A DNA stretch of 49,959 bases, from assembly GCA_903789415.1 (NCBI GenBank), contig CAIFEG010000014.1, positions 1-49,959 on the forward strand, written 5' to 3'. This DNA comes from an uncultured Eggerthellaceae bacterium (GTDB lineage Bacteria > Actinomycetota > Coriobacteriia > Coriobacteriales > Eggerthellaceae). The notes beneath the pieces are model-generated. The model was given only the letters and a program-made list of their open reading frames with translations, did no database searches and was not told the DNA's origin. Both the position numbers and the translations under genes were made by a program. Position 1 is the stretch's first letter. Every line of letters begins with the position of its first letter. Shown piece after piece: positions 40,648 to 45,961 of this stretch.

Positions 40648-40920
40648 CTATTGAACGGTGCCGTACACCTGGCCCCACGCATGCCCTGCAATTGCGGAAT
40701 TAAACTGGTCGCACATTGTCTGGCGGGCATAGAGACCCGGGGGCAAAATGCGCACTACTTCAAGCAAATCTGCAGGTAAATCGAGGGATTCTGCAAGCAC
40801 CACCGCATCGATACTGGAAACAAATTCCGCATCCTTAAAAAGGGCGTCAACAAGTTTTTGCAGGCTTCCGTAATCTTCGCTTCGATGAAGATTCGTGATA
40901 GGTCCAACATTATTGTCCAT
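40648..40920 (-). CDS. Conserved-looking small hypothetical protein
   Basis: 90 residues, acidic and helical with no membrane segment; no function was recognised. DAVVLAESLDLPADLLEVVRILPPGLYARQ reads like a real hydrophobic-core protein (quoted in part as SLDLPADLLEVVRILPPG). The ATG has GAGG ten bases upstream, and it follows the methyltransferase-like gene by 21 bases, so it is probably the second gene of that operon. The intact frame and binding site argue for a true gene. Confidence 0.65.
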   Translation of the reverse strand: MDNNVGPITNLHRSEDYGSLQKLVDALFKDAEFVSSIDAVVLAESLDLPADLLEVVRILPPGLYARQTMCDQFNSAIAGHAWGQVYGTVQ

Positions 40921-40941: not shown

Positions 40942-41838
40942 TTAGCGAATGCAATCCGTATCGTTTACCGCAGCCGCGAGTGCGCCCGCATATGCGGCGG
41001 TCGCCTGCCCGGTCGCACGCACAAATTGCGCACCTGCACTACGCAGATGCAAACCTGTTGTGATCATAGAATCAGCGTCAGAGAAAGGGTTACCCTCGAG
41101 AAGCTCTGGATGGCCGATGGTGTCCTCCTTTTTCACCGGCGTGACATCAAGCTGGACCAAGACAGGAAGCTCCGTTGCGCGAATCACACGTTTGATAAGA
41201 CGCGTTGCCTGATCGACCGTTCCTTTCAGACGGAATCCCACCACGTCAGCTTCGAGGTCTTCCATCAGTTCGACGGCATCAACCAGATTTTCCTTACGCC
41301 CTAAAAGGTTGCCATCCGCGTCAACATTTACCGAACAAAAAACCGGCGTATAGGTTATGCGACGCACACCCATTAAGGCGCAACGCACATCATCAATGCT
41401 CGCCATGCCATCAAGGAAAAACGCATCGAGATCTTCGCCAAATGCGCGTGCCGCATCGGAATATTGGTTTCGGTTTTCCTTTAAGGATGCCTGACTTTCG
41501 GGATCGATCGGGAGTCCAGTAGGTCCGATCAATGCCACCACATGCTGGGGCATGAGGTCTTTTACCAGATCGAGCGATTTTTGTGCAAGCTCTTCCTGTT
41601 TATCTTCGAGCCGCGCATGAGAAAGCTGCGCGCGCGTAATAAAAGGAGTTGGCGTCACAAGGCACGGAACTCCTGCCATCTCCTGCAAACGAAGATCGTC
41701 AGAGACGGCCTCTTCATCGGTTGACAGAAGCATGGGACCTTCGGCAAACACGTCGATGCCCTGCCTTGCAAGGTCTTCGGCGAGTGGAGAAGAAAGAACG
41801 AGCATATCTTTATGGAAACGTTGTTTGAGATCTGGCAT
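40942..41838 (-). CDS. Homocysteine S-methyltransferase-fold protein lacking zinc cysteines
   Basis: 298 residues that look like the betaine-homocysteine/MetH N-terminal TIM barrel: IGPTGLPIDPES, the acidic LDAFFLDGMASIDDVR, TYTPVFCSVNVDADGNLLGR and a C-terminal GAQFVRATGQATAA. The zinc-ligand motifs of the family are missing: the GxNC position reads GFRL, and the C-terminal GGCCGT reads VRATGQ. Methyl transfer to homocysteine is therefore unlikely as normally described. It may bind a corrinoid or folate partner or be a structural relative. A -10 TATAAT lies at 41880-41875, and the promoter is short and clean. Confidence 0.6.
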   Translation of the reverse strand: MPDLKQRFHKDMLVLSSPLAEDLARQGIDVFAEGPMLLSTDEEAVSDDLRLQEMAGVPCLVTPTPFITRAQLSHARLEDKQEELAQKSLDLVKDLMPQHVVALIGPTGLPIDPESQASLKENRNQYSDAARAFGEDLDAFFLDGMASIDDVRCALMGVRRITYTPVFCSVNVDADGNLLGRKENLVDAVELMEDLEADVVGFRLKGTVDQATRLIKRVIRATELPVLVQLDVTPVKKEDTIGHPELLEGNPFSDADSMITTGLHLRSAGAQFVRATGQATAAYAGALAAAVNDTDCIR

Positions 41839-41947: not shown

Positions 41948-42012
41948 CCGATAAAAGGTTTCGAAAAATCAACGTGAAAACGGCGAAACGGTTCGTCTTA
42001 TCGGCGTTTTTT
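41948..42012 (+). terminator. Orphan plus-strand terminator-like hairpin
   Basis: CCGATAA (41948-41954) pairs with TTATCGG (41998-42004), and inside it GTTTCG (41958-41963) pairs with CGAAAC (41984-41989); then come CG and six T. The orientation is that of a plus-strand terminator, but no plus-strand gene precedes it for kilobases. It either ends a short unannotated RNA that starts after about 41.85 kb or insulates the small-RNA locus downstream. Confidence 0.55.
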
Positions 42013-42046
42013 CATACAACGTGCATTCCTTAATCAAATCTTCTGC

Positions 42047-42160
42047 TCATTCATTTTTTATAATTGACCTGTCAAACGAAAGGTTTCCCTCCTGACGTTT
42101 GGATTGCTCAGCAATCTCCTCCTTATATAAACAACGTTGAGCAATACGGTGCGAAAGCAT
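42047..42160 (-). CDS. Possible 37-residue small protein antisense to the RNA candidate
   Basis: The minus strand reads an ATG at 42160 with GGAGGGG seven bases upstream, then 37 codons to TGA at 42047 (MLSHRIAQRCLYKEEIAEQS...). The binding site is excellent, but there is no homologue I know and no clear promoter. Its purine-rich binding site and two inner AGGAGG copies are the complement of the CCUCC motifs described on plus, so only one strand may be biologically meaningful. Confidence 0.25.
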   Translation of the reverse strand: MLSHRIAQRCLYKEEIAEQSKRQEGNLSFDRSIIKNE

Positions 42161-42217
42161 CGTCTATCCCCTCCTTGAGGCCCGGCTATCCCCTATTACG
42201 CCGGGCCACCTTTGTAT
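42071..42217 (+). ncRNA. Candidate small RNA with repeated anti-Shine-Dalgarno motifs
   Basis: About 147 nt after a TATAAT box at 42059-42064. Four predicted stems: CAAACG/CGTTTG (42073-42101); ATTGCTCA/TGAGCAAT (42103-42145), perfect; ACGGUGC-GAAA-GCAUCGU (42146-42163), with a GNRA loop and a G-U pair that would be an A-C mismatch on the other strand; and GGCCCGGC/GCCGGGCC (42179-42207), perfect and terminator-like with a weak U-tail. Unpaired segments repeat CCCUCCU, CUCCUCCU and CCCCUCCUU, all complementary to ribosome binding sites. No known family was recognised. Function as a translation-repressing RNA is inference. Confidence 0.45.
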
Positions 42218-42314
42218 TACGGCTCTTAATGTATGAGCGGCCCCCTAACTCCATGTTCGAAGACAACGTGTCTGTATGCGGGCTGAATGCATGCGGACTG
42301 AATGCATGCTGGCA

Positions 42315-42347
42315 TAAAAAAACAGCGACCCCTTCAAGAGATCGCTG
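42315..42347 (-). terminator. galU terminator
   Basis: Read on the minus strand, CAGCGA and TCGCTG pair around a 13-nt loop and are followed by seven T. It lies 30 bases past the galU stop. Confidence 0.85.
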
Positions 42348-42376: not shown

Positions 42377-43192
42377 TTATTTTCCGAAACGCTTTTCGTA
42401 GAGACGATTGTTCGTATCAAGCCAGGTTTGCGGTGTGCCCGTATCGTATCCCTCGTCAGGATCGATAACCATTGCATACATTTCTTCTTCCTGAAGAACC
42501 TGATCAAGCGCATCGGTGAGCTGGATTTCTCCACCCGTGGTGGGCTTTGCATCGACAAGCAGTTCCATAATGCGTGGACTCAACAGATAGCGACCAAACA
42601 CCGAAAGATTTGATGGCGCTTCCTCTACCGGAGGCTTTTCGACAAGACCGTCAACCTTCCAAACCTTGTCAGATACCTGCGTCCCAGAGATCACGCCGAA
42701 GCGACTTACCTCTTCCTTTGGAACAGGAAGCACGGCAATAACATTGGCGCCGTTGTGCTCATCGGAGATTGCTTTCATACGATTCAGCATGTCATTACCT
42801 GGAACGATGACATCGCCAAGCAGCACAAAGAACGGCTCATTGCCTGTTTTCTCTACTGCACAATGCACGGCATCGCCAAGCCCCAGTGGCTCTTTCTCGT
42901 ATACAAAGCTCACCGGAAGGTTTCCAATGCGCTCTACTTCGTCTGCACGATCACCTTTGCCGCGCTCACGAAGTGTTTGTACCAGTTCAGGATCTGGCTG
43001 AAAATGACGCTCGATATCCTTTTTCTCCGGGCTGTTGATGATGACAACCTCGTCGGCGCCGGACGCCAATCCCTCTTCCACGACATACTGAATTACAGGG
43101 CGATCGACAACCATAAGCATTTCTTTAGGAACAACCTTTGTTTCTGGCAAGAAGCGCGTTCCCAGCCCAGCTGCCGGAATCAATGCCTTCAT
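42377..43192 (-). CDS. galU: UTP-glucose-1-phosphate uridylyltransferase
   Basis: A 271-residue enzyme that makes UDP-glucose for envelope glycans. The nucleotidyltransferase signature PAAGLGTRFLPETKVVPKEML is at about 6-26 (20 residues quoted in part: GLGTRFLPETKVVPKEM). FVLLGDVIV and VEKPPVEEAPSN are further family motifs. Start: ATG with AAGGAGG upstream. It is the last gene before a strong terminator and lies 100 bases after ccmD, so it may have its own promoter. Confidence 0.96.
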   Translation of the reverse strand: MKALIPAAGLGTRFLPETKVVPKEMLMVVDRPVIQYVVEEGLASGADEVVIINSPEKKDIERHFQPDPELVQTLRERGKGDRADEVERIGNLPVSFVYEKEPLGLGDAVHCAVEKTGNEPFFVLLGDVIVPGNDMLNRMKAISDEHNGANVIAVLPVPKEEVSRFGVISGTQVSDKVWKVDGLVEKPPVEEAPSNLSVFGRYLLSPRIMELLVDAKPTTGGEIQLTDALDQVLQEEEMYAMVIDPDEGYDTGTPQTWLDTNNRLYEKRFGK

Positions 43193-43647: not shown

Positions 43648-44454
43648 TTATTCGTCAAGCGTTTGCTTCATACGGTCGAGTTCCTCCTGAGCACGCTCGG
43701 TACGAAGGCGCCAGCGGAAAAGCCCATAGGAAATAAACAGCATGCCGAACATCGCACACATAAGCGGAATCATCATTTCGGTTGAAAGACCGGAATCTGT
43801 GCGGAAGATCGTCGGGTGTACACTCGACGGAACAAGACGGGTAATCATGAAGCAGATCGGCACATCAATAAAGGTAATGATGCCGAATACGCTTGCATAT
43901 GATGCGCGTTTTTCTGGATCATCAACGGCTGCGCGAAGCACAAAATAGCCAATGACCAGCAGCATCAAGATGAAATAGGTAGTCAGACGAGGATCCCAGG
44001 TCCACCACACGCCCCATTCGAAGCGCTCCCACATCTCTCCGGAAAACATGACCATGACGACAAATACCAGCGATACTTCCGTTGCAAGATGCGCTTTGAG
44101 ATCGTAGTCAGAATCTTTTGTCATCAGATAGCGAATTTCGTAAAACGCCGCGACACCAAGCGCCAAGAAACTGGTAATGGCCACCGGCATGTGGAAATAG
44201 AAAATCTTCTGCGAGAAAAGCATCTGATTTCCCACCATTTGATCACCGATGATCGCAATGCCATCGACGCGCGCTCCGTTAACCGGGGGTGCAATGGTAA
44301 ACGCCAAAACGAAACCCAAAACCGACAGGATCGCACCCAGCACAAGAATGACCGGCGCAATTTTATCTGCGGTGCTCAATGCTGTTTGACCTCGTGATGC
44401 TGTTTGACCTCGGGAAGGCATTTGACCTCGGCGATTTTTGTTTGTTTGTGCCAT
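43648..44454 (-). CDS. ccmC: Haem exporter protein CcmC
   Basis: About 268 residues with six transmembrane helices and the haem-handling tryptophan-rich motif WGVWWTWDPRLT (about 150). It belongs to the CcmC/CcmF family and loads haem onto CcmE. A cytoplasmic N-terminal extension contains three near-identical SRGQ(T/M) repeats that correspond to DNA repeats and are absent from classical CcmC (about 245 residues). The ATG at 44454 has AAGGA five bases upstream; an earlier start at 44514 would overlap ccmB. It lies 26 bases after ccmB. Confidence 0.93.
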   Translation of the reverse strand: MAQTNKNRRGQMPSRGQTASRGQTALSTADKIAPVILVLGAILSVLGFVLAFTIAPPVNGARVDGIAIIGDQMVGNQMLFSQKIFYFHMPVAITSFLALGVAAFYEIRYLMTKDSDYDLKAHLATEVSLVFVVMVMFSGEMWERFEWGVWWTWDPRLTTYFILMLLVIGYFVLRAAVDDPEKRASYASVFGIITFIDVPICFMITRLVPSSVHPTIFRTDSGLSTEMMIPLMCAMFGMLFISYGLFRWRLRTERAQEELDRMKQTLDE

Positions 44455-44480
44455 AGATATCCTTCTATTCATTTCAAAAT

Positions 44481-45200
44481 CTAGGCGCTGATGACATAGC
44501 CATAAAGCACCCATGAAAGCAAAAGCATAATCACATCATACCCACCGGCAAGAGCAAGCGAAGTGAGATAGGTTGTCTGCCAATCTCCGCCCACCAACAC
44601 CACGGTTGCCGCAGAAACGCATGCATACAGCAGCGGAAAAATAAGCGGAATAAACAAAACCGCCAACATGACATCTTTTCCGCGCGTGTTCACCGTAATG
44701 GTAGACAAGAGTGTACCAATTCCCGCCATACCGATCGTACCTACAATCAGCGGCCACACAAGAAGTGGCCAGGAATCTGAAACCGGCGCACCCGTTAAAA
44801 AGAAAAAGAAGTAAAGCGGAACCGCAATCACTTCAACAACCAGCATGAATAGCAAATTTGACGTGGCCTTTGCCAAAAAGATGACGCTTCGATCCATTGG
44901 TACAAGCAAAAGACCATCCAGGCATCCATTTTCTTTTTCATGCTCGAATGAACGGTTCAGGCCAAGCAAGCTGGTAAACACAATGAGCGCCCATAAAAGT
45001 CCCCCGCTCATTTGGAGGACATCAACGCCCTGCGAAGATTGCGAAAGCGCCGCACCATAGACGACCAAAACTAAAATGGAGTAGATACCCATAGACGTAA
45101 GCATTTCCTTTGTGCGGAATTCGCGTCTGAGGTCTTTCCCCAGCAAGATTTTGTATTCGGTAAACGTTGAGGGAGTCTTTACCTGGACAGATCTTGCCAT
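44481..45200 (-). CDS. ccmB: Haem exporter protein CcmB
   Basis: A 239-residue integral membrane subunit with six predicted helices, starting with a basic cytoplasmic segment, KDLRREFRTKEMLTSMGIYS (19 residues quoted, about 20-38). With CcmA it forms the ABC transporter-like part of the haem-handling complex. The start overlaps the ccmA stop as TAATG, so it is coupled. It lies in ccmE-F-A-B-C-D order. Confidence 0.93.
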   Translation of the reverse strand: MARSVQVKTPSTFTEYKILLGKDLRREFRTKEMLTSMGIYSILVLVVYGAALSQSSQGVDVLQMSGGLLWALIVFTSLLGLNRSFEHEKENGCLDGLLLVPMDRSVIFLAKATSNLLFMLVVEVIAVPLYFFFFLTGAPVSDSWPLLVWPLIVGTIGMAGIGTLLSTITVNTRGKDVMLAVLFIPLIFPLLYACVSAATVVLVGGDWQTTYLTSLALAGGYDVIMLLLSWVLYGYVISA

Positions 45201-45961
45201 TATGCAACACCCATTCCTACGGTCTTTTTATAGAACGCAGAAAATGCGTCGAAGTCAATTTCTTCTTTTTTCGCGAATGCTGCTTTCCGCCCGCGCGCCA
45301 TGACCAGGACATGGCTGCAAGCTGCAAGTCCTTTATCCATATCGTGGCTGACCATCACGAAGGTGCGCCCTTCGCGAACCGTGGCGATGATCTGGTCAAA
45401 CACATCTACCGCATGGGGATCGAGACCGGAATATGGCTCATCAAGCAACACTAAATCGGGATCTGCAACAAGAGCGCGCGCAATGGATATGCGCTGGGTC
45501 ATTCCGCGAGAAAACGTGCGCACAACATCCATGCTTCGATGCGAGAGTTCAACCGCATCTAACAATTTGCGTACCCGTGCGTCGGGATTTTCAACACCAT
45601 ACAGGCGCGCGGCAATCATGAGGTTTTCGTAGGCGGTTAAGTCATCGTAAAGCATTGAACGATGTGAAATCAGACCTACGTGTTCACGGGCCTGTTCGGG
45701 ATGTTCCTTAATATCGATGCCCCCTAAGACAATACGTCCTTCGGAAGGTCGGGAAAGTGTTGCAAGCATGCGCAAAAGAGTCGTTTTCCCCGCACCATTG
45801 GGTCCGAAAATCGAAAGGAACGCACCATGCGGGATGGAAAGCGATAAGTCATCCACCGCACGGCGTGATCCGAAAATTTTGCTTACATGATCAACCAGAA
45901 TGGCCGGTTGATCAGCGGGTTGATCTGTTGCTTGATCTGTTTGAACATCCGACGCAGGCAT
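45200..45961 (-). CDS. ccmA: Haem exporter ATP-binding protein CcmA
   Basis: 253 residues, the ABC ATPase of System I cytochrome c maturation. Walker A is GPNGAGKTTLLR (about 55). The signature is SRGMTQRISIARAL in place of the standard LSGGQ, Walker B is LVLLDEPYSGLD, and the H-loop is VSHDMD. Five bases separate it from ccmF, and it ends in the ccmB start overlap. The N-terminal 20 residues are a short unconserved Asp/Gln/Pro stretch. Confidence 0.95.
   Translation of the reverse strand: MPASDVQTDQATDQPADQPAILVDHVSKIFGSRRAVDDLSLSIPHGAFLSIFGPNGAGKTTLLRMLATLSRPSEGRIVLGGIDIKEHPEQAREHVGLISHRSMLYDDLTAYENLMIAARLYGVENPDARVRKLLDAVELSHRSMDVVRTFSRGMTQRISIARALVADPDLVLLDEPYSGLDPHAVDVFDQIIATVREGRTFVMVSHDMDKGLAACSHVLVMARGRKAAFAKKEEIDFDAFSAFYKKTVGMGVA

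Follow-up and report, generated by a model that had tools for sequence, protein, structure and literature searches.

A covarying small RNA family of Eggerthellaceae with repeated unpaired anti-Shine-Dalgarno-like segments

RoxS/RsaE and other C-rich-loop sRNAs of Firmicutes block ribosome-binding sites with UCCC- or CCC-rich unpaired segments, and the CcsR RNAs of Rhodobacter are of the alpha-r14 or cuckoo kind. NfeR1 of S. meliloti, an alpha-r14 RNA, has three hairpins that each carry CCUCCUCCC, with variable stems and redundant seeds, and there are six copies (PMC10746234, PMC7143759). In the 6C/B11 RNAs (RF01066), C-rich unpaired loops pair with ribosome-binding sites (PMC10470900), and 6C acts without RNA chaperones according to a title cited in that paper. 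The Collinsella-1 RNA (RF01700) is a structured RNA of gut Actinobacteria whose function is unknown (PMC2864571). In a full-text search of open papers and in the Rfam matches, no sRNA from Eggerthellaceae was found described.

The window, which is the whole stretch of 49,959 nucleotides analysed here, belongs to an uncultured Eggerthellaceae bacterium (contig CAIFEG010000014.1). An earlier note, made from the letters alone, had proposed at positions 42047-42217 a structured small RNA with three or more anti-Shine-Dalgarno (anti-SD) motifs on the plus strand, or else an antisense micro-ORF. It was found that the plus strand has an RNA of about 146 nt with four stems and with CCUCC-type motifs in loop 1, in loop 2, and in the linker before the terminator. 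The RNA, its promoter, and its neighbours are as follows.

40942-41838, minus strand: homocysteine S-methyltransferase-like gene (PF02574), the divergent neighbour of the RNA, common to most relatives.
42011-42048, plus strand: promoter box of four direct repeats (T-N-CA-Y) with 11 bp spacing, from the profile of about 100 homologous promoters.
42059-42064, plus strand: -10 box TATAAT without a canonical -35, from the sequence and the homologue profile.
42071-42216, plus strand: putative sRNA, its 5′ end placed 7 nt past the -10 box and its 3′ end past the terminator hairpin, from the fold, the covariance model match, and covariation.
42072-42102, plus strand: stem-loop 1, in which 42072-42078 and 42096-42102 pair (7 bp), with CCCUCCU (42087-42093) in the loop, from the fold and covariation.
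42103-42145, plus strand: stem-loop 2, in which 42103-42112 and 42136-42145 pair (10 bp), with CUCCUCCUU (42116-42124) in the loop, from the fold and covariation.
42146-42163, plus strand: stem-loop 3, in which 42146-42152 and 42157-42163 pair (7 bp), with a GAAA tetraloop, the sole loop without a C-rich motif.
42166-42176, plus strand: single-stranded linker AUCCCCUCCUU, the best-conserved portion of the RNA.
42179-42207, plus strand: stem-loop 4, a GC-rich terminator hairpin in which 42179-42188 and 42197-42207 pair, with a UCCCCU loop and then a short U-rich tail.
42377-43192, minus strand: galU-like nucleotidyltransferase gene (PF00483), the convergent neighbour of the RNA, common to many relatives.

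On the plus strand, the fold of 42066-42215 reaches a free energy of -51 kcal/mol, where shuffled sequences average -31.7 (z -5.55); none of 200 shuffles was as stable. The same test gave z -1.71 on the minus strand, and a relative, L002, gave z -6.19 in a fold of its own. The four stems, the 7-bp stem with a GNRA loop (GAAA) among them, are as had been described, except that stem 2 has 10 bp rather than 8. The TATAAT box followed by single-stranded C-rich motifs was also read correctly. In the DNA, the words are CCCTCCT at 42087-42093, CTCCTCCTT at 42116-42124, and CCCCTCCTT at 42168-42176, while UCCCCU at 42189-42194, in the loop of the terminator hairpin, is a fifth C-rich stretch. However, CCCTCCT occurs three times in the window where 2.9 occurrences are expected. 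Since this and other C-rich words are not rare there, the case stands on structure and conservation.

Is the structure conserved? In a model alignment of 78 distinct sequences, which is fitted to the structure, 94.2% of the cells hold standard pairs and two-sided changes occur in 35 of the 37 pairs, with all four helices involved. Cells with a two-sided change numbered 311, against 74 +/- 11 in shuffled alignments and no more than 50 with the pairing slid by one to three columns; the observed covariation values were reached by none of 500 shuffles, a statistic that the kinship of the sequences inflates, whereas the slid control is free of that weakness. On a MAFFT alignment that was not fitted to the structure, RNAalifold predicted 11 pairs, 10 of which have two-sided changes. 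The first MAFFT alignment (A2), in which stems 2 and 4 are misplaced in some sequences, served solely as the unfitted control. The stems of the RNA vary freely while their pairing is kept.

The unpaired segments behave differently from the stems. Of the 105 distinct members, 102 have CCUCC in the linker, which reads AUCCCCUCCUU in full in 67, and 83 have it in loop 1. A run of CCC is found in the terminator loop of 98 members and in loop 2 of 63, and in loop 3 of just six. Loop 2 of the window copy is unusually long and carries CUCCUCCUU, where most relatives have CCC or CCCC. In L183, L184, L185, L187, and L024, from a related Coriobacteriales family, a conserved GACUCGGUU replaces the C-run in loop 2 and the linker CCCCUCCUUG is kept; the RNA sits at a different locus there. 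Read in this way, every unpaired element except loop 3 has a C-rich, anti-SD-like segment. Conserved unpaired anti-SD motifs on covarying stems are a feature of anti-SD sRNAs, and compensatory changes in stems 1-4 together with conserved unpaired CCUCC segments in related Coriobacteriia are what the earlier note had named as support for the RNA; both were found.

By DNA search, short matches were seen in 14 of 138 Eggerthellaceae genomes. The first of these, L002, aligns across the whole RNA and has two tandem copies. A pattern of the linker and the terminator then led to Gordonibacter, Paraeggerthella, Eggerthella sinensis, Rubneribacter, Raoultibacter, Enteroscipio, Slackia, and Adlercreutzia/Enterorhabdus, as well as to several MAGs labelled Coriobacteriales. 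A covariance model (R1, whose E-values are rough) was built from 15 relatives with the window copy excluded. It matched the window copy, which is single in its genome, at 42065-42216 with E = 4e-12. Matches were obtained in 101 of the 138 Eggerthellaceae genomes, in 75 of 92 high-quality genomes, and in 36 of 48 genera, with one to four copies each. Across 398 genomes of the class, matches outside Eggerthellaceae were few and weaker, and a phylum-wide draw of 396 genomes gave just three borderline ones outside the family. Strong matches are limited to Eggerthellaceae and a few related Coriobacteriales. Chance linker-terminator patterns beyond Coriobacteriia fail the model (best E 0.017) and were rejected as members.

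Does the RNA belong to a known family? The earlier note knew of no described family that matches. Neither the window nor 11 relatives gave a match to any Rfam family at gathering score, and permissive scans yielded just implausible, unrelated chance matches. The likeness to the alphaproteobacterial cuckoo RNAs holds for the design, with several hairpins, highly variable stems, an unpaired conserved CU-rich anti-SD motif, multiple copies, and a conserved promoter motif, but homology was not borne out by sequence or structure models. The RNA is from a different phylum and has four stems, including a terminator hairpin with a C-rich loop; its motif is (A)UCCCCUCCUU rather than CCUCCUCCC, and the most conserved copy lies in the linker, not in a loop. 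Its promoter has 11-bp repeats instead of the LysR-type site of alpha-r14, and it occurs without Hfq and without an Rfam match. Membership in cuckoo/alpha-r14 was rejected, because the RNA has four stems, a C-run in loop 3 of only 6 of 105 members, and the motif CCCCUCCUU, not three hairpins with CCUCCUCCC, and because no library model of such RNAs had a match in the window or in 11 relatives.

The 6C/B11 RNAs of mycobacteria and other Actinobacteria are from the same phylum and also have C-rich unpaired segments, but 6C consists of two hairpins with C runs, while the present RNA has four stems with CCCCUCCUU. The 6C model (RF01066) had no match in the window genome and none over the cut-off in 13 genomes, the weak matches lying elsewhere in the genome. 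From RoxS/RsaE the RNA differs in architecture and promoter and in having no Rfam match at gathering score. The Collinsella-1 model was unmatched in the three RNA-bearing genomes searched, R1 does not match the Collinsella-1 loci, and a lone CCUCC near one Collinsella-1 copy is isolated. By these comparisons, the RNA would resemble cuckoo/alpha-r14 and 6C/B11 in its working but belong to neither.

The promoter is shared throughout the family. When 103 upstream regions were aligned on the -10 box and numbered from the first base of the hexamer, CA was found at -46/-45, -35/-34, -24/-23, and -13/-12. The counts of CA at lags of 11, 22, and 33 were 259, 178, and 86, against 8-109 at other lags. 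Positions 1, 2, and 6 of the -10 hexamer are T, A, and T in 94%, 99%, and 99% of the homologues, and the last repeat of the window ends 10 bp before the -10 box. A matrix of the box trained without the window placed 42011-42048 at the top of all window positions on both strands (20.8 bits, the next 14.4). When 18 genomes were searched for the box with up to three mismatches allowed, 32 sites came up, every one just upstream of an RNA copy. By sequence, the RNA has its own promoter and terminator and would be an independent transcription unit, another feature of anti-SD sRNAs. Tandem 11-bp repeats that end about 10 bp before a -10 box are the layout of promoters activated by response regulators of the PhoB/OmpR type, as in the pho box of E. 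coli. The box is probably the binding site of a tandem-binding activator, an OmpR/PhoB-type response regulator.

Membership in the Pho regulon, prompted by the 11-bp repeats (PhoB/PhoP), was rejected, as the box matrix gave no more than background scores at the pstS loci (22 genomes searched, 21 of them with a match). In many genomes (G003, G007, G024, G067, G068, G076, G080, G083, and G096), a pstS-like gene is found at a distance of 8-35 kb from the RNA array, and the surroundings of these genes are without the promoter box. Upstream of the pstS of the window genome itself, L203:144-181 reads TTTCACATCTATGCAACGTTAGTTCACATCAATTTGAC, which is PHO-box-like by eye.

How may the RNA work? It is likely, if well short of certain, that it is a trans-acting anti-SD sRNA, an Hfq-independent translational repressor of many targets under an OmpR/PhoB-type activator. 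The RNA (about 146 nt, plus strand) would be transcribed from its dedicated promoter, where the tandem-binding activator, probably a response regulator of the OmpR/PhoB type, would stand in for the -35 contact, and would be terminated at its own hairpin. The fast-varying stems would display the C-rich anti-SD copies of loop 1, loop 2, the linker, and the terminator loop, and these, by pairing with purine-rich ribosome-binding sites on numerous mRNAs, would keep the 30S subunit from binding. The predicted outcome is repression of the translation of many messages without Hfq. The sequestering of ribosome-binding sites, proposed already in the earlier note, is thus an inference from the analysis. 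A gene for Hfq was found in none of 13 genomes, with the controls behaving as expected, which fits chaperone-independent action as for 6C. Pairing energies, calculated for bare duplexes with accessibility left out and with a general 16S tail sequence, were -12.9 (loop 1), -12.0 (loop 2), -10.6 (linker), and -10.2 kcal/mol (16S tail) with a generic GGAGG site; with AAGGAGGGGAU, the linker reached -26.8 against -13.7 kcal/mol for the 16S tail.

The targets were sought through the extended complement of the motif. In 12 genomes, about 29 sites of the form AAGGAGGGGA-N(2-10)-ATG were found, with the RNA's own antisense excluded, against about 57 for the control AAGGAGGAGA. Judged by their translated N-termini, the genes at the AAGGAGGGGA sites include some for transcription factors, for cytochromes, for Tat-exported reductases, and for a 2-oxoacid ferredoxin oxidoreductase. 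There was no enrichment of mRNAs with AAGGAGGGGA in these genomes; as the control gives more sites, before similar sorts of genes, and is just as rich in reductases, no target is claimed. The motif, with no specificity segment outside it, would leave the choice of targets unexplained, and this counts against the reading as an anti-SD repressor.

A protein might just as well be what the C-rich single strands bind. The main rival is a decoy: the unpaired C-rich segments may titrate a protein that binds C-rich RNA (Rho, a KH or cold-shock protein, S1) or the ribosome, and not mRNAs. The redundant, near-identical motifs of each molecule and the presence of up to four copies per genome would suit a sponge, as would the lack of detectable enrichment of extended mRNA complements. 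The linker AUCCCCUCCUU is nearly the 3′ tail established for 16S rRNA in general, AUCACCUCCUU. However, what is conserved is CCUCC(UU), an anti-SD and not just any C-run, and the known RNAs of such design pair with ribosome-binding sites (PMC10746234, PMC10470900). I consider such a decoy unlikely, but a rival to be taken seriously.

Unlikely too is a ribosome-directed brake specific to the family, in which several near-copies of the 16S 3′ tail, expressed from the dedicated 11-bp-repeat promoter, for which no other use has been found so far, would titrate Shine-Dalgarno sequences or initiation factors genome-wide. If this is true, translation would be lowered on a signal in bacteria without Hfq, and gene copies would have been multiplied to set the dose.

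Very improbable is a cis-acting role, either as the leader or riboswitch of a downstream gene or as an antisense or 3′ UTR regulator of the convergent galU. The RNA is indeed closely linked to galU across Eggerthellaceae. The loci read hold 109 distinct copies. In 71 of them the S-methyltransferase gene is divergent at the 5′ side, in 13 its place is taken by rarA, also divergent, and in 46 of these 84 copies galU lies convergent at the 3′ side within the DNA read. In contrast, 16 of the 109 have none of the S-methyltransferase gene, rarA, and galU within their flanks, and termite-gut relatives have neither neighbour in the flanks read. The window has no plus-strand gene close behind the RNA. 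Its terminator falls about 160 nt short of the stop codon of galU, which has a terminator of its own at 42323-42347; a role as leader or antisense is thus unlikely. Furthermore, in the arrays of Eggerthella and Gordonibacter the multiplied copies lie between the S-methyltransferase-like gene and galU, several kb apart, with other genes inserted.

Arrays of three or four copies, some with genes between, were seen at G067 C1:3460918-3471850 and G068 C1:3009942-3012050 and in L111, L070, and L081. Their copies differ in loop length and may be specialised. In the window, a short GACTGAATGCATGC-like tandem repeat of two copies was noticed by eye at 42279-42311, past the RNA and before the terminator of galU. 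The minus strand at 43648-45961, upstream of galU, holds a Cytochrom_C_asm gene and an ABC ATPase gene with a membrane protein between them, of the cytochrome c assembly type, and a 90-aa ORF (40648-40920, minus) lies directly downstream of the S-methyltransferase-like gene.

The antisense micro-ORF has a negligible chance of being the feature: an ATG frame of 37 codons does exist at 42160-42047 (minus) with AAGGAGGGG before it, but this "perfect SD" is just the complement of the CCUCC motif, a minus ORF that is preceded by an SD and reaches 30 aa is present in only 29 of 105 homologues, with no common start and unrelated sequences, conservation tracks the pairing of the plus strand, and the conserved -10 and promoter box point to plus.

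The structured small RNA with at least three anti-SD motifs on the plus strand, as first proposed, is thus upheld by its fold, its covariation, its own promoter, and its conserved locus, and a trans-acting anti-SD sRNA is the preferred reading of it. Judged from its sequences, the RNA is a clear and taxonomically broad family of Eggerthellaceae. As it has a single, strongly conserved promoter, its signal and its regulon would come to light from one transcriptome and one deletion. Eggerthella, Gordonibacter, and their relatives live in the gut and metabolise drugs as well as plant compounds. The comparison suggests that a design of variable stems with repeated anti-SD loops has arisen in alphaproteobacteria as well as in mycobacteria and Coriobacteriia, in the latter two without Hfq.
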